In this document: positions 1-44,546 of the stretch, one piece after another
Position numbering within the stretch: position 1 is the stretch's first letter
Layout: each line of letters starts with the position of its first letter
Assembly: GCA_023667055.1 (NCBI GenBank)
Contig: JAMPAV010000001.1
Coordinates: 62,540 to 111,573, forward strand
DNA from: Muribaculum sp.
Lineage (GTDB): Bacteria > Bacteroidota > Bacteroidia > Bacteroidales > Muribaculaceae
Direction of reading: 5' to 3'
Length of the DNA stretch: 49,034 nt
Made by a program: the position numbers and the translations under genes
The notes under the pieces: model-generated
Told to the model about the DNA's origin: nothing
Seen by the model: the letters and a program-made list of their open reading frames with translations, nothing else
Databases searched by the model: none

Positions 1-305
1 GCCTGCAGGCCAAAAATAGCTCCAAGGCTGCGACCCCAGCCACTGCCATTTTTTTGAGTCGGGGCCTAAGTTGGAAGATATAAGATTGTGACATTAAAAA
101 GTTGGTTAGTCAACTATATACATTTGCTATAAAATATGGAAAAATACGTATATGTTTAAAGCGAATAATTGCAAATTGAAACATAAATAAATTTTATTTT
201 TATTGTTAACATTTATTAACAATAATTTATGCATATATATCGATATTTTATGTAATTTTGCGAAAAATTATACAAAAGGTTGTTAATGATTTCAAATAAA
301 TACTA
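1..305. other. Gene-poor leader region at window start
   Basis: No gene is recognised. The first 60 bases are GC-rich and could be the edge of a neighbouring gene: on minus, an ATG at 49 opens a frame that runs off the window, and on plus one frame stays open to a TGA at 55. Neither short peptide is recognisable. The rest is very AT-rich and serves as leader for the secreted protein gene starting at 306. A Bacteroidota -7 box, TAATTTTG, lies at 253-260, but no clear -33 element is seen at the usual distance. Confidence 0.5.
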
Positions 306-2283: not shown

Positions 2284-3003
2284 ATGATGAAAAAATTTAC
2301 TTTTGCTGCAATGGCTGCCCTCTTGGCTTCAAGCGCAATGGCAATCAACACCGAACCCGTAATCGACGCCGAAGGCGAGGAAGTGCTCTACACCCAATAC
2401 ATGAATGGCTATTCATTCGGATTTCAAGAAGACCTCGAACTTAAGGATGCGGCTATCTACTTTGCCGACGACAACAAGGTGTATTTCCTGAATATTGATG
2501 GCATGGATTATGACACTTTTGTGGTAGGCGAGAAGAAAGGCAACAAGATTGAAGTGGTCCTTCCGCAGCTTGTGGCCGATGAAGGAATTATGAGAATAAA
2601 CTTCTCAGTGGTTGAGCCCGTTCCGACACCGGAGGATATCCTTGACCTATGGGGTGAGGAAATTGACCCCTATTATGCTCCCGTCAAAGATGCTGAGACT
2701 GTAGTCACTTTCACTATTGCTGAGGATGGCACAATCACACTTGATACACTTCCGGACAACAAGGGAATCGGCTCGGTGGAAGTTCCAAATCTTTCCTATT
2801 TTGACTGCATGTATGCTATCACTGAAATGAAATATACACCAAACATTCCAACAGCTGTTGACTCCGTTGAAAACACGACTGTATCAGAAGAATACTATGA
2901 CCTCAGTGGCCGCTATGTGGCAAATCCGTCAGAGGGCGGAATATATGTCAAGATTGCTACAAAGGCAGATGGCAGCCGCAAAATCAACAAAGTATTTAAA
3001 TAA
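2284..3003 (+). CDS. Small secreted protein with sorting-like C-terminus
   Basis: This is a 239-residue protein with a clear signal peptide (residues 1-20, ending in SSAMA). The mature part is acidic and beta-rich and I do not recognise its family. The C-terminus has the pattern YYDLSGRYV...GGIYVK...KINKVFK, typical of the short sorting tails of type IX cargo. ATG codons occur at 2284 and 2287; the second gives a signal peptide starting MKK and is equally likely. It sits between two larger secreted proteins with similar tails, so a joint surface role is inferred. Function is not known. Confidence 0.7.
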   Translation: MMKKFTFAAMAALLASSAMAINTEPVIDAEGEEVLYTQYMNGYSFGFQEDLELKDAAIYFADDNKVYFLNIDGMDYDTFVVGEKKGNKIEVVLPQLVADEGIMRINFSVVEPVPTPEDILDLWGEEIDPYYAPVKDAETVVTFTIAEDGTITLDTLPDNKGIGSVEVPNLSYFDCMYAITEMKYTPNIPTAVDSVENTTVSEEYYDLSGRYVANPSEGGIYVKIATKADGSRKINKVFK

Positions 3004-3057
3004 TTCAACTTTCAGTTGAGGTTTATGGGTTTATAAACCCATAAACCCAAAGTAAAG
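3003..3057. repeat. Stem-loop followed by palindromic TTTATGGG array
   Basis: A small stem-loop (CAACT/AGTTG, 3006-3018) directly follows the stop codon. It is followed by a palindromic array built from GGTTTATGGGTTTATAAACC-type units. The same design (variable stem-loop, then 7-8-nt direct repeats) recurs at 9196, 24614, 26680 and 48958. Confidence 0.7.
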
Positions 3058-3065
3058 AGTCCAAC

Positions 3066-6000
3066 ATGAAAATTCTAAAAACATTAGGTATTTTACTAAC
3101 GGCTCTGTGTCTTCCCTGCATGTCGCAGGCTCAGATCACAATCCAGGAGGCCAAGACCCTTATAAAAGAGGGTAAGGCCAAGAAATTACCGGAATACAAA
3201 ATTTTTAGGGATTGCACAGATTCCGGCATCAAAATACCCAATGCATCTGATGCATTGGTTGGCACTGTGAAGACCGACAAAAAAGATTCTTCTTCCGAAG
3301 AGGGACTCATCAAGCAATCTTTCAAGGTCCCCTCTAAGGTCACAAACGGCGGGTCGGAGGTTTATGGTTTTTGCCGATACAGTGAAGACGAGACAGTGAT
3401 GCCCGTCGGTCTCTACTATATAGAACCGAATGGACTTCTACCTATGTGGGAGGATGAGTTCTACTATACGGAATTTTATACTCTCAACAACGGTTTTCTC
3501 TACAATGGCAGTCTTATAGGCACAGCCACATACGCATTCATGGGATACATGTTCGGATATTCACGTCTGGTGATTGACTTCGAGACAGGTCGCATTATAA
3601 GCCGCACTGATTACGATTTCCAAAACCCTGATGTCATAACCTACGAGCTTATTGCTTACAACACAAACGACGGTTGCGTGTATGGAACAGCCCGGGCTAA
3701 CGATGGGAAATACCATTGGTATCGCACCTCAATGGAAGATCTTGGAAGTGGCGACGACTTGGGTGTGACCAGTCCTGACATTACATCTCTTTGCTATAAT
3801 GAAATTGACAATGCCTTTTACGGCACAGACCTTAACGGCTATTTTGTGAAAATCGACCTTGAGGGCAACTGCACACAGCTTTTCAAGCTGGATGCCTCCG
3901 ACATCAACTTCAAATCAATGGCATCGCTTGTGTATTGTCCGGTAGAGAAACTTTACTATACAAATCTCCGATCCACCGGCTACGGCTATATTATGGCCAT
4001 TGATGCTGAGAAAAAAGTGATTGTCAGCAAAGACAGAATGCCCGTAAAGGCTCAGTTCAGCGTGATGGTCACCACCGATGAAGTGGTAGAGAATCCCATG
4101 AAACCGCTTGCCCCTCAAATCAAGAGCCTCACTTTTGAAGATGGAAGCACCACGGGATACGGAGATTTTGTCATGCCCTCTATTTCTGTAAGCGATCAAC
4201 CTCTTGCAGGTGAAATTCTGGCTTATCCAAGTGTCAATGGTGTGATGGTTGCCCCTGAAGGTATTCTATCGGCCCCCGGTGAAACACTCAGGGTTGATTT
4301 CACAGATCTTCCCGAGGGCAGGAACACTTTCAAGATGTTTGTCAGATATGATGGCATCTCAAGCCGCACTGCCACTGAGACAATCTATCTCGGCAATGAT
4401 GTGCCGTTGGCTCCAAAGAACGTGCAAATCAATGATTCTTTGGTGAGATGGTCGGCCGTTCGCAAAGGTGTCAACGATGCATTCCTTGCAAGGAATGAAC
4501 TCAGATACAAGGTATATGTCAATGATGAATACATCGGGGAGACAGAAAACACAAGAATGCCTATATCGCTTCCAAAAGACAAGGAATATGCACTCTACAC
4601 AGCCAAGGTGATTGCAGTTTGCCGTGGTAAGGAATCGGAACCCGCTTTTTCAAGTGGATTGGCTTCAGGCGCACCTTTCAATCTGCCTCTCTATATCATA
4701 CCGACAGAGGAGCAATCAAACCTCTGCAGCATCTCCAACAGCAATATGGACGAGGCCATGTGGTGGTATAACGACTACTACGATGCTTTCGTGATGGGCT
4801 ACAATGACTATAGGAAGAGCGACGACTGGGTGATTATGCCTCCTTTTGAAGTGAAGGACACTGAAAAGTATTATCAGCTTTCCTTTGAGATTGCAAGGGC
4901 AAGCCAGAAATATACTGAGGAGTTCCTGAGCGTATATACCGGAACTTCCAACAAGCCGGAAAGCATGACCAACGAAATAATGGCTCCGTTCTCCCCCATC
5001 AACTACGGCACTACCTACGACAAATACATAATACCTTTCAAGGTGGGTGTAGATGGTGGATGCCATGTAGGATTCCATTGCACGTCTGATGCCGGACAGT
5101 ATGGCATGCGTCTCAAGAATATTTTCATCGTTGACAACAACATCACGGATGAATCCCCGGCTCAGGTGCTCAACCTTGACATACAGCCCTACGAGGCCGG
5201 TGAACTGAAGGCCGATATTTCGTTTAATCTTCCCCGAAAAACCCTCTTCGGCGATCAGCTTCCAAAGGATGTGGAGGTAAGCGCTATAATAATGGGCGTG
5301 GATACAATCACCGTCAGCGGTCGTCCGGGTGAAAGGATGAAAGCAGTCATACCCACTCACCAGGGCAGAAACGTCATCAGCGTCATGACCAAACTCGGCG
5401 ATTTGGGTTCGGTGGAGACAGAAGCCACTGTCGTCACAGGTGTGATGCAACCCGAGACACCGGTAGTAAACGGACTCACCATTGCTCCCGACATGCAGAG
5501 CATGACAATGACTTGGAAACCGGTCACCACCGGCATGGAAGGTGGCTACGTAGTTCCTGAGGATATCACCTACGTCATCTATCAGCAGAAACAGACTGTG
5601 CTGGGTGCGGATTATTGGGATGAGATAGCTAACGTGGGCACAGCCACAAGCTACACCTTCGTATGCGAACCCGGTGCACCCCTCGACTTGGTCACTATCG
5701 GAGTGGCATCCTTCAATGCAGCGGGTACCAACGGTTATGTAGGTGCGGGACAAGGTCAGGTAGGCACACCATATACAGTACCGATGGAGGAGGATTTCTC
5801 AAAAGGATATATCAACCTGAATCCATGGTTGATACTTGACCCGAACCCATCTTACTCAGCCGAATATGAGGTGATCGAGACAGTGGAGGTTGGCAATTTC
5901 GACACAGACGCCGAGTATCTCATGATAGGTCAGGGTGAGAAAGGGTCGAAGGGTCGCCTTGCAGTGCCACGTTTCACTTCCATGGATCTTCAGAATGCCA

Positions 6001-9195: not shown

Positions 9196-9250
9196 TAAAC
9201 TTTCGCAAGCTGAAGTTGAAGGTTAAAAGGTTAAAAGTTTAGGAGTTTAA
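9196..9250. repeat. Stem-loop plus AAGGTTAAA direct repeats
   Basis: An AACTT...AAGTT stem-loop is followed by GAAGGTTAAAAGGTTAAAAG-type repeats. It belongs to the same composite design as the elements at 3003, 24614, 26680 and 48958. Confidence 0.6.
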
Positions 9251-11881: not shown

Positions 11882-12427
11882 ATCCTCAAAATACCAAATA
11901 TTATCACATTTGCCTTATATTGATTTACAGCAATGCAGCTAAATTAAAGTATGAACACAAAATAAATGTGCATTTTATCTTCTGCAATGGATGGGAGTGA
12001 TTTTGACTCCAACGCTAATCCGGCTTCGCCGGTTGGGGCGCGGATTTGGCGCGGATTTCTTATATTTCAATGCTTCGGCATGGCAATACAGATTGATTTC
12101 GCTCAGCGAAATCTCGGATCGAAGCCGATGGATGCGGAATTTGCTCCAGCAATCAAAATGTACAATTACTTTGTGCGTGTACTATAAAATCTTCACAAGT
12201 CAATTTATAGAACCTGCCTTAAGGGACTTCAAGCCCCTTACACAGGAGGGAAACCGATGTTTTCTGTGATTAATTTAGCGACATTATGATTTACAAATGA
12301 CAAGGGTAGATATATGCCTTTGGTAAGTATTTTGAACAAATAACATCCTTTTTTGTTGTTTTATTATATCTAACTAAAAAATTGTCGTTGATTCTTTCAG
12401 AATGACTTACATTCGGTTTACATCTTG
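11882..12427. repeat. Gene-free region with hairpins and an inverted-repeat-bounded element
   Basis: No gene is seen. AATGCAGCTAAATTA at 11932-11946 and TAATTTAGCGACATT at 12271-12285 form imperfect inverted ends (13 of 15) of a 354-bp element. Inside are three perfect hairpins: 12020-12032 (CCGGC/GCCGG), 12070-12081 (ATGC/GCAT) and 12095-12113 (GATTTCGC/GCGAAATC), plus a direct repeat of GGCGCGGATTT. The right part (12210-12285) is a degenerate copy of the 80-bp element found twice at 15739-15917. Confidence 0.65.
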
Positions 12428-23267: not shown

Positions 23268-23290
23268 CAAAGTGAAAGTCAAAATCATTC

Positions 23291-23400
23291 ATTCATGATG
23301 ACTCATGATGACTCATGATGACTCATGATGACTCATGATAACTCATGATAACGCATGATAACTCATGATGACTCATGATGACTCATGATAACTCATGATT
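23291..23400 (+). repeat. Eleven 10-bp repeats ACTCATGATR in the recA leader
   Basis: Eleven head-to-tail 10-mers, most exactly ACTCATGATG or ACTCATGATA, with variants at units 1, 7 and 11. Each contains the palindrome TCATGA, so identical faces recur about once per helical turn. Every unit also carries an ATG that soon meets a TGA, giving overlapping tiny upstream frames. The ATG at 23385 is in frame with recA. The array lies between the promoter and the recA start. Confidence 0.95.
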
Positions 23401-23435: not shown

Positions 23436-24611
23436 ATGGCAAAGAAAGTAGCAAAAAAGCCGGTAGGCGGAAGAATATCAGATATGGACGAGAAGCGCAA
23501 GGCTCTCGATGTGGCAATGGCACATCTTGAGAAAGACTTCGGAAGCGGCACCATCATGCGTCTTGGTGATGACGCGGTGCAGGATGTGGAGGTGATACCG
23601 ACAGGTTCCATAGGGCTCGACTATGCACTCGGTGTAGGAGGTCTTCCCCGTGGCAGAATCACCGAGATATATGGTCCTGAATCTTCAGGTAAGACGACAC
23701 TTGCCATCCATGTGATAGCGGAAGCCCAGAAACAAGGAGGAATATGCGCCATTGTCGATGCGGAACATGCTTTTGACCGTTTCTATGCTGAAAAACTCGG
23801 TGTGGATGTCAACAATCTGTGGATTGCGCAACCCGATAATGGCGAACAGGCTCTCGACATAGCCGAACAGTTGATAAATTCCGGTGCCATAGATGTGCTT
23901 GTGGTGGATTCAGTGGCTGCACTCACCCCTAAGGCCGAGATTGAGGGTGAGATGGGCGACAAGAATGTGGGTCTTCATGCCCGGCTTATGAGCCAGGCCA
24001 TGCGCAAGCTTACGGGCACCATTTCCAAGACACGCACATGCTGCATTTTCATCAACCAGATTCGTGAGAAGATAGGTCTGATGTTTGGCAATCCGGAGAC
24101 TACCACCGGTGGCAATGCATTAAAATTCTATAGTTCTGTGCGTCTTGAGATTCGCCCCAGCGGCTTCATCAAGGATGGAGAGCAGGCCGTAGGTCGTGTG
24201 GCCAAAGTTAAGGTGGTGAAAAATAAGGTTGCACCTCCATTCATGAAGGCTGAGTTTGAACTGATGTTTGGAGAGGGAATATCGAGAGTTGGCGAGATTG
24301 TGGATCTTGGTGTGGAACATGGCATAATCCAGAAGTCGGGTGCATGGTTCAGCTACAATGGCAACAAACTCGGACAGGGTCGTGATGCAGTGAAACGAGT
24401 GCTGAAAGAGAATGAGGAGCTTGCTGATGAACTTGCCGAGAAAATCTATGAGAAGATGAATGCCGACCGTGACGCAAAGCGTCCGTCGGGCAATCCCTTC
24501 CTGCCAAGCCGTGACAATGTGGTGACATCTGAGGATGATGATATCGATATTGCGGCCGAGCCATCTTCCACCGGTGCGGAAGATCTCTTCGGGGATGACT
24601 TTGCACTTTGA
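23436..24611 (+). CDS. recA: Recombinase RecA
   Basis: This is a 391-residue RecA, the ATP-dependent strand-exchange protein for homologous recombination and DNA damage response. Walker A is GPESSGKTT, and Walker B is in [11 protein letters not shown]. Loop L1 and L2 regions are intact ([35 protein letters not shown]...[16 protein letters not shown]). The acidic C-terminus is longer than in E. coli. The start at 23436 (MAKKVAKKP) is chosen; an in-frame ATG at 23385 in the repeat array would add 17 residues. Phage head genes follow directly on the same strand. Confidence 0.97.
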
Positions 24612-24613
24612 TA

Positions 24614-24680
24614 TTCATCTTTAGCGAAGCTAAAGATGAAGGTTATAAGGTTATAAGGTTATGGGGTTATAAGGCTTTTT
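24614..24680. repeat. 12-bp stem-loop plus GGTTATAA array after recA
   Basis: Perfect stem TTCATCTTTAGC / GCTAAAGATGAA (24614-24640), then GGTTATAAGGTTATAAGG units. A close relative, with stem TCATCTTTCGC, follows the scaffold-like gene at 26680. Confidence 0.8.
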
Positions 24681-24731
24681 GAGTGAAGTATGATATGTGG
24701 AGGTCCCTGTCTCGGAAGAGACGGGGGCTTT

Positions 24732-24775
24732 TTACATGGATAAGGGGTTGAGATTTTGTTTTGTCCGTAACTTTG
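24732..24775 (+). promoter_or_regulatory. Portal-gene promoter: TTACATGGATAAGGGG - 20 nt - TAACTTTG
   Basis: The 16-mer at 24732-24747 is followed after exactly 20 bases by a -7 box TAACTTTG at 24768-24775. The same 16-mer, spacing and box type recur before the scaffold-like gene at 26163. The 16-mer may replace the usual -33 element or bind an activator. Confidence 0.7.
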
Positions 24776-24789
24776 CGGCTAAAAAAGTT

Positions 24790-26193
24790 ATGGATGAAAT
24801 ATTCGAGAAAGCATCGCGTGCATGGAATGCGATGGACAAATTCCGCTCCGACCGGTCAAGATGCAAAAGGTTTGTCTATGGCGACCAGTTTGGCGATCCG
24901 GTGGAATATGACGGACGCAGAATGACAGAACGCCGATATATAGAGGAAATGGGGCAGACACCTATGAAAAACAACATACTGCGTCGTATCCTCAGAAATG
25001 TGGTGGGGGTATATCGTTCTTCCTATAAAGTGCCTGTAGCCACCAAATTTGACTACAGCGGATCAGGAATAGTCATCAAAGACATAAACAGAAACCGGAA
25101 AAACACATTCAGCGAGAACTATCTGGATGAATTGCTTCCTCGCCAGCTTGAGGAGTTTCTTATTTCCGGTTTGGCTGTGGTGAAGGTAGCATACCGGAAG
25201 ATATCAGGAGCCGGAGAACCGGGTATAGGTATTTTCCCTGTCACTCCCGACAATTTCTTTTTTCATTCCGACGGGTATGATCCGCGTGGTTGGGATGTGG
25301 ATATGGTGGGTGAGGTGCACAATGTGAGTTATGCCAACCTCATTGCATCATTTTGCCGCAATGCAGAGGATTTCAGAAAATTGGAATCGGTCTATGCCGG
25401 ACATAGTGAGAGCGGAAGTCCATGCCGTGTGATGGAGGTGTGGTACAGGGCCACTGATATGTGGTGTATGGTTCATGACGAGAACAGCGCCAGTGTAAGA
25501 AAAATGCCGTTGTGGCAATTTCACGAAAGATTAAAGATGAATGGTCCTGGTAAAAGCCCCGGAATTGACCTGAACAGAGTGAAGACAGATTTGCGTACAT
25601 GTTGGAGATGTGCCTGGTATTCTCAAGATGGCATATTGCTGAAAAAAATAAATGTCAGCCATGATATGCACCCATACGTGTGGAAGGCCTATCCATTTCT
25701 CGACGGCGAGGTGCATTCTTATATAAGCGATATTATCGACCAACAAAAATACGTGAATCATCTCATCACTCTCTATGATTTCATAATGAAGTCAAGTGCC
25801 AAGGGTGTGCTGCTTTTTCCCGATGAGTCATTGCCACGCGGCATGAGTCTTCAGGATGTGGCCGACGAGTGGTCTCGGTTTAACGGGGTGATTCCATATC
25901 GTGCACAGCCGGGAGTGGCGTTGCCAACACAGGTGAGTGGAAATGCCGCCAACATCGGTATATCGGAATTGCTTAAGATTGAGATGCAGATGCTTGAAGA
26001 CATCAGTGGTGTGTCACCCACACTTCAGGGCAAGTTGCAGACGAATGTGTCGAGCGGCACACTCTTTGCCCAGCAGAATCAGGCTGCATTGACATCTCTG
26101 CTTGATGTGGTACGCAGTTTCGAGGAGTTCACGTCGGCCATAGCTAAAAAAATAGACACATCTTACATGGATAAGGGGCGGAGGGGTCTTTGA
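24790..26193 (+). CDS. Phage-type portal protein
   Basis: This is a 467-residue protein that resembles tailed-phage portal proteins, the dodecameric ring at the capsid vertex through which DNA is packaged. Seen: an early MKNNILRRILRNVVGVYRS helix, the IFPVTPDNFFFHSDG segment, AYPFLDGEVHSYISDIIDQQKYVNHL and a C-terminal ISGVSPTLQGKL...SSGTLFAQQNQAALTSLLDV region typical of portals. The frame is open to 24697, but the start at 24790 (MDEIFEK) lies 14 bases after a -7 box and is preferred. It is intact. It stands directly behind recA, and its last codons contain the promoter of the next gene. Family call is by pattern only. Confidence 0.7.
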   Translation: MDEIFEKASRAWNAMDKFRSDRSRCKRFVYGDQFGDPVEYDGRRMTERRYIEEMGQTPMKNNILRRILRNVVGVYRSSYKVPVATKFDYSGSGIVIKDINRNRKNTFSENYLDELLPRQLEEFLISGLAVVKVAYRKISGAGEPGIGIFPVTPDNFFFHSDGYDPRGWDVDMVGEVHNVSYANLIASFCRNAEDFRKLESVYAGHSESGSPCRVMEVWYRATDMWCMVHDENSASVRKMPLWQFHERLKMNGPGKSPGIDLNRVKTDLRTCWRCAWYSQDGILLKKINVSHDMHPYVWKAYPFLDGEVHSYISDIIDQQKYVNHLITLYDFIMKSSAKGVLLFPDESLPRGMSLQDVADEWSRFNGVIPYRAQPGVALPTQVSGNAANIGISELLKIEMQMLEDISGVSPTLQGKLQTNVSSGTLFAQQNQAALTSLLDVVRSFEEFTSAIAKKIDTSYMDKGRRGL

Positions 26194-26206
26194 GGCAGTA
26201 ATTTTG
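26163..26206 (+). promoter_or_regulatory. Internal promoter for the scaffold-like gene, same design as the portal promoter
   Basis: TTACATGGATAAGGGG at 26163-26178, 20 bases, then TAATTTTG at 26199-26206. The 16-mer lies in the last codons of the portal gene (YMDKG). At 24732 the same bases are non-coding, so the conservation is likely for DNA function. Confidence 0.7.
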
Positions 26207-26236
26207 CATCAGTAATCATTCAACATCTAAATAATC

Positions 26237-26677
26237 ATGGATAAAGAAAACTATACAGCTTATGACCTCGAAAAAGAAGAACCTCGGAATCCTCAGTCGT
26301 CTGAAATTCCGAGAAAGTCGAAAGACGCCGGAGACACAGCAGACAAAGGAAATTCCGGAGAATCAGGACACGACCGAAATTCCGGAAATGCCAATAACCC
26401 TAAAAATACCGATGACGCCAATGGTACAGAAGATAATAAAGATTCTGAAGATACTCAGGTTTCTGACAGACCTGATACTTCAGCTCAAAAGGAGATTGAG
26501 AAAATGATAAGGGAGCAAGGTGCGGAAAGAGTTCTGGAGATTATCAGGGGCAACAGAAATGCAGCCGCCCAACAGATCATGAAGGAAATGGAGGATGACA
26601 CCGATGTCACACTTCAGTCGGGCACTTCTATCGGCGGACGATGCCAGTCGATCTTCGACCTTGCCTCACTTGCCTGA
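26237..26677 (+). CDS. Acidic scaffold-like protein of the head module
   Basis: This is a 146-residue hydrophilic protein. Residues 10-85 are low-complexity and rich in Asp, Glu, Asn, Ser and Pro. Residues 88-125 form a likely amphipathic helix (QKEIEKMIREQGAERVLEIIRG). The C-terminus contains QSIFDLASLA. No family is recognised. Its place between portal and capsid genes, its size and its charged helical build fit a phage scaffolding protein, which is an inference from gene order. It has its own promoter. Confidence 0.5.
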   Translation: MDKENYTAYDLEKEEPRNPQSSEIPRKSKDAGDTADKGNSGESGHDRNSGNANNPKNTDDANGTEDNKDSEDTQVSDRPDTSAQKEIEKMIREQGAERVLEIIRGNRNAAAQQIMKEMEDDTDVTLQSGTSIGGRCQSIFDLASLA

Positions 26678-26679
26678 AT

Positions 26680-26737
26680 TCATCTTTCGCTTTGCGAAAG
26701 ATGAGGGTTATAAGGTTATTGGGTTATAAGGTTAATT
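26680..26737. repeat. 11-bp stem-loop plus GGTTATAAGG array before the capsid gene
   Basis: Stem TCATCTTTCGC / GCGAAAGATGA (26680-26704) followed by GGTTATAAGGTTATT units. It matches the element after recA in both stem base and array. Confidence 0.8.
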
Positions 26738-26781
26738 AGCCTAAGATAGATTCAAAATTCAAAATTCAAAATAAAATAATT

Positions 26782-28227
26782 ATGAACCAAAGTATTGTTT
26801 CCGGCGAGGCAGCAACTGTAAATTCACTCGCCAATGCCACCGGCGGCATAAATGCCGGAAATTTTGTGGAAACGGATGTAGATAAGCAACTTTTTCTATT
26901 CAACATCGACGATACCCCACTAATGAATCTGATGTTGAGAGCGAAGAAGGTAAAGGTAAATTCTCCTGAAGTGGATCATTACATGATAGACGAGCCTAAG
27001 TCAATTTTGACAGTGGTGGCAGATTGTAAGGGCAACAGAACGCAGAATGTGCTTCAGCTGGCAAATGGAGAGCAGAATCTTCCGCGCCAATACACCACAT
27101 TGCTTGTGAAGGGGGTGGATGGCTATGACAAGGATGGAAAGAACCCGACCCACGGTAAGGCTCTGATGCTTTTTGTCACCGGGCATGACACTGCTTCGGG
27201 AAATCCGATAGTGAAGGCTGTCAATGGCAGCAAGAATTCACCTGATGAGGAAATGTCTATGATACCGGAGATACCTGCCGGTACAAAGGTGGTGATGCTT
27301 GCAAATTCGCTCTATGAGACTCAGAAAGAGGTGGATCCCGACATAATAGTGCCACAGCCCACAAGAATCTATCTTCAGAAACGCGGCATGAATCAGGTGG
27401 TGAGCGATTATTTTGATTCCCAGCGCAAGAGGATACCATTCACTAAAGCTGTTGTGGCGGAGCAGGCTATTGCCAACTTCAAGGTGCGTGGCAACCGTAC
27501 TCTATGGGCAAGCCGTGCAGGAAAGATTCAGGTCAATGTGCCAAACATGGGTATGCAGTATGCCTACACCACAGAGGGACTTCGCTGGCAGTTCAAGCGT
27601 GAGCTTCAGCATTCCGGACGCTGGAGTGTGGAGAAGATAATTGCTCTTGCAAAGATGTTCTTCACCGGAGAGGATGTGCCGAAGACCGCTCTTCTGCTTG
27701 CCGGTAAGGATTTGCTCGAACAGATACAGTGTATCGACTACTCAAAGCATCCGGAGATTCAGATTTCCACAAAAGTCAACAGTGTGGGATGGACTGTGAC
27801 CAATTTCCATACGGTCTTCGGCGATATTGAGATAAAGCGCGAACCCACTCTCGACCGTCTCGGATGGAGCCGAAGCGGTGCCCTGATAGGTGAAGACAGG
27901 CTTGTGCACTATGTGTATAGCTCGGAGCATACGTTTGCCGACCGGGTTGAGGGTCACGAGGCTTCAAGAAGCGGAATACTTATATGGGATGCGCTTGCCC
28001 TGAAGGGAAGCTGCCATATATGGATTGATGGAGAAGGAGAGATAGCTTCTGATGAAAGTGAACATCTCATGCTTTGGGATTCGGAAGATGCTCCCACCCC
28101 CACAGCCGGCAGTGTATATTATCTGGTGAATGACTGTCCCGGTATCTCACCCATGGCGAAGAGTGGCTCAATGTGGACTTGTGAAGAAGGTGACTGGAAA
28201 GAATACACCGGAGAAGTCAATGTTTAA
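26782..28227 (+). CDS. Phage-type major capsid protein (HK97-fold-like)
   Basis: This is a 481-residue protein that looks like a tailed-phage major capsid protein of the SU10/DUF5309-like kind. The N-terminus has a long extended arm, then VDKQLFLFNIDDTPLMNLMLRAKK, the usual start of such proteins. Further on come RGMNQVVSDYFDSQRKRIPF, a region rich in beta strands, and DRLGWSRSGALIGEDRLVHYV. The last 70 residues look like a small extra surface domain. No catalytic residues are expected. Position after a scaffold-like gene is the classical head order. Frame intact. The family call rests on pattern and context; a structure prediction would settle it. Confidence 0.65.
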   Translation: MNQSIVSGEAATVNSLANATGGINAGNFVETDVDKQLFLFNIDDTPLMNLMLRAKKVKVNSPEVDHYMIDEPKSILTVVADCKGNRTQNVLQLANGEQNLPRQYTTLLVKGVDGYDKDGKNPTHGKALMLFVTGHDTASGNPIVKAVNGSKNSPDEEMSMIPEIPAGTKVVMLANSLYETQKEVDPDIIVPQPTRIYLQKRGMNQVVSDYFDSQRKRIPFTKAVVAEQAIANFKVRGNRTLWASRAGKIQVNVPNMGMQYAYTTEGLRWQFKRELQHSGRWSVEKIIALAKMFFTGEDVPKTALLLAGKDLLEQIQCIDYSKHPEIQISTKVNSVGWTVTNFHTVFGDIEIKREPTLDRLGWSRSGALIGEDRLVHYVYSSEHTFADRVEGHEASRSGILIWDALALKGSCHIWIDGEGEIASDESEHLMLWDSEDAPTPTAGSVYYLVNDCPGISPMAKSGSMWTCEEGDWKEYTGEVNV

Positions 28228-28238
28228 TAGTTAAGAGC

Positions 28239-28349
28239 AATGTCACTAAATTAGGAATGAGGAAAGAGGAATTAGGAATTAAAAGACGCAGGAAACCAGC
28301 TTCGACTCTTTTCGGATTCAAGAATTTCAGGGCTTAATTTAGTGACATT
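28239..28349. repeat. 111-bp element with perfect 15-bp inverted ends
   Basis: AATGTCACTAAATTA at 28239-28253 and its exact complement at 28335-28349. The interior differs from the elements at 15739-15917, but the ends are the same, as in a family of non-autonomous elements. It lies between the capsid gene and the next small gene. Confidence 0.85.
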
Positions 28350-28422
28350 AGAGTTATGGGGCAAGAGTTAAGTTGACCCTTAAAGCTAAAACTAAAAACT
28401 AAAGACTAAAGACTAAAAACTA

Positions 28423-28908
28423 ATGATAAAGAGATATGAAGTAAGAGGGATGATGGAATGGCATCCCATGTTTGCCGTAGGTCGCGCGAGGATACAGGTC
28501 TCCTTCACCGGAGGCCACCTCGGCGAGGGATGCTCCACTCCTGCTGCATACATTACCTCCGACCCGGTGGTGCAGAGAGTGATAGAACATTCCGAGGCAT
28601 TTCTTAACCACAGGATACGTGTTGCAGCCTGTTATCCTGATACGTCAGATAAAAATGTTGTGCCAAAGAATAAGAAAGCGGTCAAGGCAGCTGCGGCATC
28701 CCCTTTCGCAACATCTGTAAAGAAAGCTGTCTCAGAAAACAATTCTGAAGACATGGAGATAATGGAATTTGATGACTATGAAGATGCTGCAGATTTTCTG
28801 CACTACAAGAAGAATATACCTGTAGATCAGTTGCTTGATTGGGAAAGCTGTGTGGTTGAGGCTAACCGACAAGGTATAAAATTGGTATTAAAAGATGAAA
28901 AAATATGA
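28423..28908 (+). CDS. Small protein of the head module, function unknown
   Basis: This is a 161-residue protein. Residues 1-70 include MEWHPMFAVGRARIQVSFTG and STPAAYITSDPVVQRVIEHS; a Lys/Ala-rich linker (85-105) is followed by an acidic helix. I do not recognise a family. The gene overlaps the next one by 4 bases, so the two are translationally coupled. Its place behind the capsid gene suggests a head-completion, decoration or connector role, which is inference. AACTAAAGACTAAA-type repeats lie just before the start. Confidence 0.55.
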   Translation: MIKRYEVRGMMEWHPMFAVGRARIQVSFTGGHLGEGCSTPAAYITSDPVVQRVIEHSEAFLNHRIRVAACYPDTSDKNVVPKNKKAVKAAAASPFATSVKKAVSENNSEDMEIMEFDDYEDAADFLHYKKNIPVDQLLDWESCVVEANRQGIKLVLKDEKI

Positions 28909-29477
28909 TTTGCAGCATTGAGCAATTGATTGAAGATGTCATGTCGAGGATGGGGGAGACTTCCGAGGTCTCCCCCTCCGCCGGCTTGACAGGAGTTCCC
29001 ACATTGGAAGATATCTTGAAGAGAAAGATAAGCAGTTTTCTTCCTGAGGTTGGAAAAAAACTGCTTGTGGAGGCATCTGCCGAAATGCTTGCAGGTGCGG
29101 AGGATTATCATGTGGAGGTGTCAGCGAGGAAAGTCCCGGCGGGACTATATGCTGTGGATATACCTTTACCGGAAGATTTTGTACGTCTTGTGTCGCTGAA
29201 GATGAGGAGTTGGCAGAGGAGCGTGGAGAAGGTTTTCACGCCCGGATCTGACGGTTTTCAGCGGCAGTATTCCGCCGAACCCGGCATATCCGGTTGTCCG
29301 TTGTGTCCGCAGGCTTATCTCAGCAATGGCATTCTCAGCGCCATTGGAAGCGAGACTGCGTCTGACACTTTGGAGCATCTGCATCTCTGGCGCATCCCCA
29401 CGCCGGATTCCGCCGGCAATTTCCATTTCCCCGCCCCCCTATATCCGGATTTGCTCTCCCATTTGATAAATAATTGA
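28905..29477 (+). CDS. Putative head-tail adaptor-like protein
   Basis: This is a 190-residue protein coupled to the gene before it by a 4-base overlap. The N-terminal helical half (SIEQLIEDVMSRMGE, LEDILKRKISSFLPEVGKKLLVEASAEML) is followed by a beta-rich half (GLYAVDIPLPEDFVRLVSLKM, then LEHLHLWRIPTP). This layout is reminiscent of neck or adaptor proteins in phages, but no family is recognised with confidence. It is the last gene of the module; the next gene is host-type and on the opposite strand. No tail gene is seen. Confidence 0.5.
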   Translation: MICSIEQLIEDVMSRMGETSEVSPSAGLTGVPTLEDILKRKISSFLPEVGKKLLVEASAEMLAGAEDYHVEVSARKVPAGLYAVDIPLPEDFVRLVSLKMRSWQRSVEKVFTPGSDGFQRQYSAEPGISGCPLCPQAYLSNGILSAIGSETASDTLEHLHLWRIPTPDSAGNFHFPAPLYPDLLSHLINN

Positions 29478-32306: not shown

Positions 32307-33311
32307 TTATCGCATCAGCTCCTCCGGATTCTTGGCAATCCAGAAAGCAAGGCCATTCATGCGACGGCAAAGATCGCGACTAATGCGGTTGGCGGTATAG
32401 ACGCCGCTGTTCATGGCGGCGAGGAGCATGCGCCCCTCAGCGCAATGATAGAAGTCGGAGCCCTGGGGCTTCGCCCTGTCGAGGAATCCATCATAAATTA
32501 CTTTGATGACTTTTGCCCCAAGAAGCAGCCCCTTGTCAAAGATGGCCTTCTCTTCCTTATGGATGAAAGGGGAAATAAGCACCCCGCCATTCTTGGCCAC
32601 GCGCAGAGCCTCCTTCTTTTTCTTCTGCCACTCCTCCGCCGAAAATTTGTGGCTGAATTTCACCACGCAAAGCTCCGGGTATTGCAGTAGCAGGCGATTG
32701 CCATAGAGCTGAATCAGCGGCTTATGATCCGGAAGCCACAAATCAGCAGGGAATTTATCGGAATTGACGATGCTTGTTCTGGAGAAGAATTCCGGGGTGG
32801 AGCGCATCAGCCATAGGCGGCGCGGGTTGTCGAGGACATAATTGGTCCAGATGTCGAGCTGATTTTCCTGCTCTGCGAAAAGAATCCGGTCATTGAAACC
32901 GGTCTCGAATACCGACTCATTGGTATGATTTCTAATCATAGCCTTCTTATGTAAGGCCTGAGTGCAAGCAGTCTTCAGATAGCCGACATATTTACCAAGA
33001 TGCAGTACTGTCCTTATCGTAACATACAAAATGATATGCACATGATCTGGCATTATGACATATCTCCACACCCTGATAAAAGGAAAATCCTTGGCAAAAG
33101 AATTGATTCCATTATAAATTGCCCAACCGGACCATGTGAAGTCAGTACTGATGAAAAGCCCATTATTCACCAATGTAGAGAAAAACGGCACCTCCGACGA
33201 AGGATTCTTCACAAAGGTGATTAGATAGAAGCAAGGAGCGAAATAATCATGGAAATCGGCACGTCGGAGCTTATTGTGCTTGAGTTCGGCATAGAATTCG
33301 GGAGGGATCAT
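32307..33311 (-). CDS. REP-associated tyrosine transposase (RAYT-1) with extra C-terminal domain
   Basis: This is a 334-residue protein. The N-terminal half is a Y1/HUH transposase domain of the IS200/RAYT superfamily: YVIMPDHVHII gives the HVH metal site at residues 90-92, and Tyr108 or Tyr111 in GKYVGYLKTA are candidates for the nucleophile. Residues about 150-334 form a second domain with GGVLISPFIHKEEKAIF, LGAKVIKVI and DFYHCAEGRMLLAA, reminiscent of a Rossmann-like (DprA/SLOG) fold and not part of standard RAYTs. The start at 33311 is chosen by alignment with the paralogue at 43542. A canonical promoter precedes it, and matching REP elements flank it on both sides. Confidence 0.85.
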   Translation of the reverse strand: MIPPEFYAELKHNKLRRADFHDYFAPCFYLITFVKNPSSEVPFFSTLVNNGLFISTDFTWSGWAIYNGINSFAKDFPFIRVWRYVIMPDHVHIILYVTIRTVLHLGKYVGYLKTACTQALHKKAMIRNHTNESVFETGFNDRILFAEQENQLDIWTNYVLDNPRRLWLMRSTPEFFSRTSIVNSDKFPADLWLPDHKPLIQLYGNRLLLQYPELCVVKFSHKFSAEEWQKKKKEALRVAKNGGVLISPFIHKEEKAIFDKGLLLGAKVIKVIYDGFLDRAKPQGSDFYHCAEGRMLLAAMNSGVYTANRISRDLCRRMNGLAFWIAKNPEELMR

Positions 33312-33340
33312 GGAAAATAGTCTTTTTTCGTTATGCAGTG

Positions 33341-33371
33341 CAAAAGTAAAGAAAAAGATTGGAATAGGCAA
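33341..33371 (-). promoter_or_regulatory. Promoter of RAYT-1 (TTG - 20 nt - TACTTTTG)
   Basis: -7 box at 33341-33348 and TTG at 33369-33371 on minus, with ideal spacing. It lies between the upstream REP (33410-33447) and the gene. Confidence 0.75.
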
Positions 33372-35419: not shown

Positions 35420-35728
35420 TTAAAAAGTAAAGGAAGGTTTTAGAATTTCAAAACGAAGGCCGAGGGCAGAGATAATACGCAGGAACAGACTTGCGCTCGG
35501 TTCTATGTTTCCGTGTTCAATATTGGATATATAAGATTTGTTTGTACCGACTCTTCTTGCCAGTTCTGCCTGGGTCATTTTTTCCTGCTTTCTTGCATCA
35601 AGAACCATTTGTCCGATACAAAAAGACTGAGCTCTTTGCTCAAGATCATCGCGTTTTGGAGTGCCAATCTCACCAACTGTCAAATCCAACAGAGAGTCAA
35701 AACTATGAAGATCATTGTTTGCTTGCAT
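35420..35728 (-). CDS. HigA-like helix-turn-helix antitoxin
   Basis: This is a 102-residue protein with an XRE-type helix-turn-helix at about residues 48-100 (MTQAELARRVGTNKSYISNI). The N-terminal part is probably the toxin-binding arm. It overlaps the toxin gene before it by 17 bases. Order toxin then antitoxin is the HigBA arrangement, in which the antitoxin neutralises the toxin and represses the promoter. Confidence 0.88.
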   Translation of the reverse strand: MQANNDLHSFDSLLDLTVGEIGTPKRDDLEQRAQSFCIGQMVLDARKQEKMTQAELARRVGTNKSYISNIEHGNIEPSASLFLRIISALGLRFEILKPSFTF

Positions 35729-36041
35729 AATATTCAGATTTAATTTTTAATGCCTTCTGTATTTCTGATTGAGGAGTTTTCTGCGTTTTCTTCTGAAACC
35801 CATTGAATAAAACGACAATATTATTCCCATCAAGAATGAAAAATACTCTATATATATTGCTTTGATATTCGATTCTCATTTCAAAAAGTCCATCCTTTAT
35901 ATATTTGACAAACCTTTGATTCCATCGATCCGACTGCTGAATATAGCGAAGCACATAAGTGACTTTGTCTCTGACATCATCATTTAGACTGAGAAAAAAA
36001 TCTTTAAAATAATCCTTGAAATATATGATAGAGCGTTTCAT
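35712..36041 (-). CDS. RelE/HigB-like toxin
   Basis: This is a 109-residue basic protein of the phage-derived Gp49-like/HigB type (RelE superfamily), predicted to cleave ribosome-bound mRNA. Seen: VRDKVTYVLRYIQQ helices, then KYIKDGLFEMRIEYQSNIYRVFFILDGNNIVVLFNGFQKK, the family core. The frame is open to 36098, but ATG at 36041 (MKRSIIYFKDY) lies 4 bases after a perfect promoter, so the mRNA is probably leaderless. It is the first gene of the operon. Confidence 0.88.
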   Translation of the reverse strand: MKRSIIYFKDYFKDFFLSLNDDVRDKVTYVLRYIQQSDRWNQRFVKYIKDGLFEMRIEYQSNIYRVFFILDGNNIVVLFNGFQKKTQKTPQSEIQKALKIKSEYYASKQ

Positions 36042-36045
36042 AACG

Positions 36046-36076
36046 CAAAGATAACAAAAGTTATTATATATGACAA
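36046..36076 (-). promoter_or_regulatory. Toxin-antitoxin promoter (TTG - 20 nt - TATCTTTG)
   Basis: -7 box at 36046-36053 and TTG at 36074-36076 on minus, ideal spacing. The start codon is only 4 bases downstream. Confidence 0.8.
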
Positions 36077-36112
36077 CTTTTTTAAAGAAAAAGTTCAAAT
36101 TTATGACTAAGC

Positions 36113-43541: not shown

Positions 43542-44546
43542 TTATCGCTGCAGCTCCTCCGGATTCTCGTAAATCCAGAAGGCGAGGTCATTCATTCGGC
43601 GACAGAGGTCGCGACTGATGCGGGTGGCGGTATAGACGCCGCTGTTCATGGCGGCGAGGAGCATGCGCCCTTCGGCGCAATGGTAGAAGTCGGAGCCCTG
43701 GGGCTTCGCCCTGTCGAGGAAGCCATCATAAATCACTTTTATCACCTTAGCCCCGAGCAGCAGCCCCTCTTCGAAGATGGTCTTCTCCTCCTTGTGGATG
43801 AAAGGAGAAATAAGCACACCGCCATTCTTGGCCACTCGCAGCGCATCCTTCTTTTTCTTCTGCCATTCCTCAGCCGAAAATTTGCTGCTGAATTTGACCA
43901 CGCAAAGCTCCGGGTATTGCAGTAGCAGGCGATTGCCAAATAGCTGAATCATCGGCTTATGCTCGGGAAGCCACAAATCGGAAGGAAATTTATCTGAATT
44001 GACGATGCTTGTTCTGGAGAAGAATTCCGGAATGGAGCGCATCAGCCAGAGGCGGCGAGGGTTGTCGAGGACATAATTGGCCCAGTTTTTGAGTTGGCCA
44101 TGTTGAAGAAGGATGCGGTCGTTGAACCCTTCGGAAAAGACAGATTCCTCTATGAGTCCATATACTTTTGATTTGCTCCGGAATCCGAATGTGCATTGCT
44201 GCTTAAGAAGTCCTATGTAATATCCCAGGGGCTGCTCTATTTGCCGGGTTACCTCTATAATTATATGAACATGATCAGGCATGATGACATATCGCCGGAT
44301 CTTTACGGTGATAGAGTTTCTCTTGAATTTTTCTATTCCATTGTAGATGCCCCATCCGGCCCATGAGAAATCGGTGGCTATTTCTCTTCCTTTCTGTATC
44401 AGTTGAGAAAAGAGGGGGATGGAGGAGGAGGAATTCTTCATGAGCGTGATGAGATAGAAGCAGCGGGAATGATAATCATGCCATTCGGCACGGCGGAGCT
44501 TATTATGCTTCAATTCTGCAAAAAATTCAGGGGGGAGCACACTCAT
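43542..44546 (-). CDS. REP-associated tyrosine transposase (RAYT-2), paralogue of RAYT-1
   Basis: This is a 334-residue protein, the same length as RAYT-1. HUH motif YVIMPDHVHIII (HVH at 92-94); candidate nucleophile Tyr109 or Tyr110 in LGYYIGLLKQ. Residues 1-150 differ strongly from RAYT-1, while about 150-334 are almost identical, including the GGVLISPFIHKEEK and DFYHCAEGRMLLAAMNSG blocks. REPIN elements with a different tail lie on both sides. A weak promoter (TTG - 19 nt - TAAACTTC) may precede it. Confidence 0.85.
   Translation of the reverse strand: MSVLPPEFFAELKHNKLRRAEWHDYHSRCFYLITLMKNSSSSIPLFSQLIQKGREIATDFSWAGWGIYNGIEKFKRNSITVKIRRYVIMPDHVHIIIEVTRQIEQPLGYYIGLLKQQCTFGFRSKSKVYGLIEESVFSEGFNDRILLQHGQLKNWANYVLDNPRRLWLMRSIPEFFSRTSIVNSDKFPSDLWLPEHKPMIQLFGNRLLLQYPELCVVKFSSKFSAEEWQKKKKDALRVAKNGGVLISPFIHKEEKTIFEEGLLLGAKVIKVIYDGFLDRAKPQGSDFYHCAEGRMLLAAMNSGVYTATRISRDLCRRMNDLAFWIYENPEELQR

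Follow-up and report, generated by a model that had tools for sequence, protein, structure and literature searches.

Phage head genes behind recA in a Muribaculum genome belong to a dispersed gene set that probably encodes a gene transfer agent in Muribaculaceae

A 49,034-nucleotide stretch of the genome of Muribaculum sp. (assembly GCA_023667055.1, contig JAMPAV010000001.1, positions 62,540 to 111,573, forward strand) contains a set of phage head genes and, farther on, a large terminase gene. The whole stretch is called the window here, and positions refer to it. The genes have homologues in the Bacteroides phage BS-TP4, whose gene products (gp) serve as the reference. Muribaculaceae live in the gut. 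The distribution and sequence conservation of these genes suggest that they make up one locus among three or more on the chromosome, which together probably encode a gene transfer agent (GTA), exapted by Muribaculaceae and inherited with the host genome. The genes in the window are as follows (aa, amino acids).

23436..24611, + strand: recA, a neighbour outside the system
24790..26193, + strand: portal protein, gp4 homologue, 467 aa from the likely ATG
26237..26677, + strand: acidic scaffold-like protein in the place of gp10, 146 aa
26782..28227, + strand: major capsid protein, gp11 homologue, 481 aa
28423..28908, + strand: gp12 homologue, 161 aa, connected via a phage-type relative and an iterated profile
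28905..29477, + strand: gp13 homologue, 190 aa
46836..48947, - strand: large terminase, gp7 homologue, 703 aa

The five genes behind recA form an intact head module. The original prediction of five intact frames in phage head order was confirmed, and the portal and capsid could be identified by profiles. The portal matches Pfam P22_portal (7.8e-20) and the PHROG portal (8.1e-42), and the family portal profile matches the solved portal 8jov at 5.8e-10. Its open reading frame (ORF) opens with a GTG at 24697, and the portal of a close relative (L089) starts at the residues of the ATG at 24790. The capsid protein matches gp11 at 7.1e-17 (phmmer) and Pfam SU10_MCP at 6.5e-5 (23.0 bits, below the cut-off of 24.1); the family capsid profile matches the VP1 major capsid 9in6 at 1.4e-13, and 1565 capsid homologues were found among the candidates scored. 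The scaffold-like protein is assigned by its location 5' of the capsid gene, its acidity, and a shared C-terminal SIFDLA stretch (by eye); it has no profile match (hmmsearch none; hhalign 58%). The 161-aa protein gives no direct match with gp12 as the query, and is tied to gp12 through the phage-type locus L030 (blast 1.7e-11; L030 to gp12 6.8e-5). The 190-aa protein matches gp13 directly (phmmer 3.2e-6) and PHROG 22135, which has no annotated function (1.1e-6). By position only, it is a candidate head-tail adaptor. No credible solved relative was found with the profiles of gp13 and gp23-25. Direct phmmer matches carry the homology claim, because the alignments compared by hhalign and in the iterated searches have common members and their figures and E-values are not independent.

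Two further results concern the capsid. For the capsid protein, AlphaFold gave a poor model from close relatives (predicted local distance difference test score, pLDDT, 52.6), which was not used. Contig C9 of the window's genome (G000) contains a prophage-like region (L003:5392-18413) with a 495-aa protein that is 37% identical over 97 aa to residues 79-173 of the window's capsid. Judged from its ORFs (by eye), the region is a prophage in its own right, in which frames resembling terminase, portal and capsid genes are all present, and it was placed outside the system. The common segment is possibly a shared inserted capsid domain.

The remainder of a temperate phage was not found around the head module. 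It had been reported that integrase, repressor, lysis and tail genes are absent there, and none was seen between 24.7 and 29.5 kb. Nine BS-TP4 proteins (of integrase, repressor, replication, RecT, SbcC, methylase, gp32 and endolysin types) had no match in the 49-kb window. The window does not hold a contiguous BS-TP4-like temperate phage genome, since host genes lie between the head module and the terminase.

The terminase lies 17 kb past the head module and was overlooked in the original prediction. It adjoins yceD, and host genes including a GH97 enzyme and fabH separate it from the head genes. It matches a PHROG terminase at 9.6e-18 and is 51% identical to the BS-TP4 protein. The residues that we take to be the ATPase motifs (K149, S156, T157 and E261) are present in 50 of 50 aligned terminases, and G155 in 48 of 50. 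The presumed nuclease acids D486, D495 and E550 are found in 48 of 49 aligned terminases and D656 in 47 of 48. The BS-TP4 terminase (PQ571277.1 20340-22436) carries the annotation tail spike protein, and name searches therefore miss it. Contig C33 of G000 carries a 333-aa degenerate terminase-like ORF (L144:6997-7998, - strand) with 25% identity to the window's terminase, an altered Walker A motif and no nuclease part.

Tail genes had been proposed for a search elsewhere in the genome, and candidates were found at a third locus, on contig C50:

356-1714, - strand: 452-aa ORF, possible nozzle, weak match
1868-2245, - strand: gp9 homologue, BS-TP4 gp9 match
2463-2915, 2985-3485 and 3503-3991, + strand: three gp23-25 homologues in tandem, BS-TP4 gp23-25 match

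A confident model of gp26 from a family member resembles the tail nozzles of P22 and SU10, and gp26 is predicted to be a tail nozzle. Genes for MgtE and MutS lie downstream at the C50 locus, and a BS-TP4 methylase query also matches on this contig. The contig starts with a repeated array (L143:2-256) whose translation is a string of VYGFIGLW units; it may be an array of the type that the GGTTATAA repeats form in the window.

The nearest known phages are three Bacteroides phages. The portal query gave three matches among 50,697 phage records, with 35-37% identity: BS-TP4 (PQ571277), BKO1-TP3 (PQ571269) and BF1-TP2 (PQ571263). The terminase query gave 184 matches in the same records, and the best were the same three phages (44-51%). 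All three have a terminase and portal homologous to those of Muribaculaceae. BS-TP4 is temperate; its single 64-kb genome has 62 annotated features, among them genes for integrase, repressor, replication, RecT and endolysin. When gp1-gp28 were searched against 61 loci, homologues of gp4, gp7, gp9, gp10, gp11, gp13, gp14, gp23, gp24, gp25 and gp26 were found in dispersed Muribaculaceae loci, and gp12 is connected to these through phage-type relatives and an iterated profile. Thus BS-TP4 shares the scaffold, capsid, gp9, gp12, gp13, gp23-25 and gp26 with Muribaculaceae as well. It differs in having one contiguous genome, a 5391-aa protein and a 657-aa portal, while in Muribaculaceae the homologues are mostly separated by host genes, the portals are about 460 aa long and the 5391-aa protein is missing. 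The giant gp3 of BS-TP4 matches seven loci, all of which are phage-type. Among the 56 loci that are not phage-type, there are two matches to the non-virion set of BS-TP4, the C50 methylase and an integrase-like ORF in G182. Phage-type terminase and portal matches with equal scores occur in two genera (G081:C276 and G090:C1), either because a related phage spread recently or through cross-contamination between draft assemblies.

The genes are found in nearly all of the Muribaculaceae genomes examined. Among 119 genomes drawn evenly from 30 genera (92 of high quality), 111 have the portal, 110 the terminase, 110 the capsid and 109 the nozzle, usually in one copy, and gp9 is found in 105. The host control genes metG and recA were detected in 116 and 117 of the same genomes. 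The system was found in 29 of the 30 genera. All four main genes are present in 100 genomes, and at least three are missing in four genomes, versus 0.2 expected under independent loss. A portal match is present in 87 of the 111 genomes from the window's genus, and in 45 of the 46 that are of high quality. In a sample of the order, 20 of 247 genomes match the portal, four from Muribaculaceae and 16 from other families. Fourteen of these 16 have phage-like frames of 622-724 aa, one is cut short and one is weak. Median portal lengths are 462 aa (19 rows) and 469 aa (38 rows) for dispersed copies versus 654 aa for seven phage-type copies.

Unlike the genes of a phage, these genes are mostly separated. 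In the 105 genomes with both portal and terminase, the two are within 10 kb in 18 (eight of them phage-type), farther apart on the same contig in 15, and on other contigs in 72. A distance of at most 10 kb separates portal from capsid in 70 of 108 genomes, and nozzle from terminase in 62 of 105; the usual layout is thus one cluster of head genes and a second one with nozzle and terminase. The window's genome has at least three separate loci. In G057 the loci are 2.55 Mb apart by coordinate and could not travel as one piece. The window's six closest relatives with flanks on both sides (L089, L092, L093, L096, L098 and L099) have a portal without a nearby capsid or terminase, and in four of the six, gp23-25 homologues are near the portal.

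The gene trees and substitution rates point to mostly vertical inheritance under purifying selection. Midpoint-rooted trees were made for the terminase (50 rows) and portal (55 rows). Of the 11 genera represented by at least two rows, eight form clades in the terminase and the portal tree alike (g3, g7, g8, g14, g15, g16, g21 and g23, the last with support of only 88/59 in the terminase tree); g6 is a clade in the terminase tree and not in the portal tree. Mantel tests against host metG, based on tree distances within the main lineage and 1000 permutations (one metG row was shortened by a stop), gave 0.59 for the terminase (34 genomes), 0.59 for the portal (36) and 0.45 for the capsid (31), each with p 0.001. 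The ratio of nonsynonymous to synonymous substitutions (dN/dS) was calculated with our own NG86 script for the 16 most similar pairs listed per gene, some of which have dS above 2, and for close pairs it is mostly 0.03-0.16. It is 0.046-0.216 for the portal (13 pairs with finite dS), 0.026-0.095 for the capsid (11 pairs) and 0.054-0.145 for the terminase (nine pairs). Between portals of the window's closest relatives it is 0.09-0.22. In these pairs, relaxed selection on the head genes was not seen.

By its sequence, the window's copy is part of a second lineage, nearer to the phages; the terminase and portal trees both group this lineage with them at 100/100. Its members are G030, G069, G100, G146 and G190, two genomes of other genera (G102 and G118), and, in the portal tree, G123; six of its genomes are in the family sample and have one full terminase match each. 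We read this grouping as a likely second domestication, or else as the replacement of one set by the other, and infer the direction of the change because the trees are midpoint-rooted.

Overall, the system resembles a gene transfer agent in how it appears to work, and most probably it is one. Kogay et al. (2022) define gene transfer agents by six features, here taken from excerpts of their article: particle proteins derived from caudoviricetes, packaging of mostly random host DNA, full endogenisation, often over several loci, a head too small for its own genome, mostly vertical inheritance, and delivery of DNA to other cells (PMC9662315). Three of the six could be examined in sequence, and all three were found. 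The proteins are related to those of caudoviricetes by matches to BS-TP4, PHROG, Pfam and PDB entries, and are known here from genes alone. They are endogenised over several loci, as the portal-terminase distances and the window's genome show, and inherited mostly vertically, with g6, g1 and g9 as exceptions. The near-universal, mostly intact and scattered genes for capsid, portal, packaging and predicted tail proteins of a short-tailed phage probably direct the assembly of particles that would take host DNA to other cells. Under host control, the capsid and scaffold proteins would form a prohead on the portal, the terminase would load host DNA into it, and the adaptor and nozzle would close the filled head. 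Once the cell has lysed, the particle would pass this DNA to a related cell, where it would recombine. Being in pieces, the element could not travel whole. The original prediction of a domesticated element or gene transfer agent is thus favored by family-wide presence, dispersal, the vertical signal, purifying selection, and the added terminase and candidate tail genes.

Several observations weigh against this interpretation. The presence counts take in phage-type copies, and among the matches listed, those of G028 (portal and terminase) and G064 (terminase) are solely phage-type. The class of genes on other contigs is inflated by fragmented drafts and is no distance. Homologues of gp23-25 occur in only 70 of the 119 family genomes, and a homologue of the gp14 tail fibre in seven of 61 genomes of the genus; a search for it in the genome of the window gave no match. 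The 452-aa ORF on C50 is a weak nozzle candidate (blast 2e-4 to one relative, hhalign about 10%), has no Pfam match and was missed by the family nozzle profile. Lysis genes were not identified in the system. The terminases of G050 and G113 lack the nuclease part, and that of G086 is a short frame. Genera g1 and g9 are divided between the two lineages. The integrase-like ORF of G182 (L093:4876-6084, + strand) is directly 5' of the portal, overlaps its start and matches BS-TP4 gp61 at 3.7e-11; it points either to a mobile element in this place or to a remnant of the phage. The absence of integrase and similar genes from stretches of 9-20 kb says little, because the seven phage-type stretches likewise have no integrase, repressor, replication or lysis match. 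A phage-type pair has equally low dN/dS (0.063 and 0.075), so selection alone cannot separate dispersed from phage-type copies, and the pairs at hand include none with unsaturated dS for the window's own genes.

Other explanations account for part of these data. The particle could pack host DNA without delivering it, serving as a weapon or being selected for another reason, as a killing or sterile particle like PBSX. PBSX packs random 13-kb pieces of host DNA without transfer, according to the portion of the source consulted (PMC7667829), all of the data here show conservation and not delivery, and the tail-fibre homologue is missing in 54 of the 61 genus genomes. However, PBSX is described in the same excerpt as a single cluster of a defective prophage (PMC7667829), while the genes here are mostly dispersed and occur in 29 of 30 genera, and a short-tail nozzle and portal fit the ejection of DNA; this explanation is unlikely. 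The capsid genes could instead have been given a different role, for instance as a compartment, and the packaging of DNA abandoned. Four genomes (G005, G052, G079 and G104) have a capsid and portal and no terminase match, and the terminases of G050 and G113 are truncated. On the other hand, the terminase is present in 110 of 119 genomes with its motif residues kept in the 50 aligned rows, and the nozzle gene in 109. A compartment needs neither, and we regard such reuse as very unlikely.

A decayed prophage was the main alternative in the original prediction, and it finds no support for the family as a whole. For the window's genome, the grouping of its lineage with phages, the phage-type copies in some genomes, the degenerate ORF on C33 and the integrase-like ORF in one relative are consistent with prophage remains that are still decaying. 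All six frames in the window are intact, however, nearly every high-quality genome of the genus (45 of 46) has a portal match, and dN/dS is 0.09-0.22 between portals of the closest relatives, which leaves decay with a similarly small probability. The genes could also be part of a split prophage or mobile satellite that is still being transferred from host to host. The equal-score phage-type copies in G081 and G090 show that relatives move, and the window's lineage is found in single genomes of two other genera (G102 and G118). Against this, the phage-type copies are contiguous with long portals, while the dispersed copies track the host tree, and an integrase-like match was found in one of 56 other loci; of the four alternatives it seems the least probable.

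Known systems share some features with the Muribaculaceae set. Formally recognised gene transfer agents form three groups, in Alphaproteobacteria and spirochaetes, in the excerpted account (PMC9662315). RcGTA and the others resemble the Muribaculaceae set in their caudoviricete-derived genes, several loci and vertical inheritance; they differ in their hosts and in that packaging and transfer have been shown for them (PMC9662315, in part). The word 'bacteroid' does not occur in that article (PMC9662315). FpGTA of Faecalibacterium, which its 2026 description calls the first gene transfer agent in the human gut, is similar as excerpted there, being from a gut bacterium and having podovirus-like genes in two separate operons (PMC12946183). 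It belongs to another phylum and one genus, and particles, DNA of about 9 kb and proteomics have been reported for it (same excerpt, PMC12946183). PBSX of Bacillus subtilis, like the proposed Muribaculaceae particle, is a host-encoded phage-like particle with random host DNA; unlike it, PBSX comes from one defective prophage cluster and has a bacteriocin-like action in place of transfer (PMC7667829, in part). No report of this system was found in search listings of the open-licence PMC literature, a scope that leaves aside preprints.

A host-encoded transfer particle in almost all Muribaculaceae, if real, would be a built-in route for moving chromosomal genes. The chances are about even that Muribaculaceae, and with this family Bacteroidota, have a functioning gene transfer agent that is near-universal, stems from BS-TP4-like short-tailed phages, was domesticated at least twice, one set taking the place of the other, and serves as a principal path for exchanging DNA in the gut community. 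Such particles would be a candidate source of the generalised-transduction or GTA-like coverage patterns in DNA of mouse virus-like particles (VLPs). In the part of their study cited here, Kleiner et al. describe 46 contigs with such coverage and 83 Bacteroidetes contigs with some transduction pattern (PMC7667829). This link can be checked from existing reads.

The position next to recA is not a general feature of the system. A recA neighbour had been said to suit a recombination-linked transfer particle, and a check of whether the head module always lies beside recA had been proposed. The portal is within 10 kb of recA in one of 109 genomes, the window itself, and a recA-linked transfer particle is ruled out by this count. 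The gene metG recurs near the portal in three relatives (L089, L105 and L106).

The gaps between the head genes had been described as like those between host genes, with shared stem-loops, repeat arrays and an inverted-end element. The stem-loops at 24614-24640 and 26680-26704 are real, as are the 15-nt inverted ends at 28239-28253 and 28335-28349, and one-mismatch copies of the end motif occur at 12271, 15804 and 15902. The sharing of arrays was only weakly borne out inside the window, because all four exact copies of GGTTATAAGGTTA are within the recA-portal and scaffold-capsid gaps; one further copy with one mismatch is at 9221 (0.01 expected). Promoters of Bacteroidota type had also been claimed for the head genes. 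The pattern TTTG-18..22-TAnnTTTG, which we take to be the consensus, matches six times in the window and not once directly upstream of the five genes.

A few other features were seen in the window. An array of CATGATGACT repeat units (23290-23400) is immediately 5' of the recA start. Two small ORFs at 35420-36098 (- strand) are similar to BS-TP4 gp15 (a RelE-type toxin, 2.2e-12) and gp16 (a transcriptional regulator, 8.3e-19). The ORFs at 32307-33371 and 43542-44546 (- strand) are similar to each other, and the former has a weak likeness to IS200-type (Y1) transposases (0.00046, below the cut-off).

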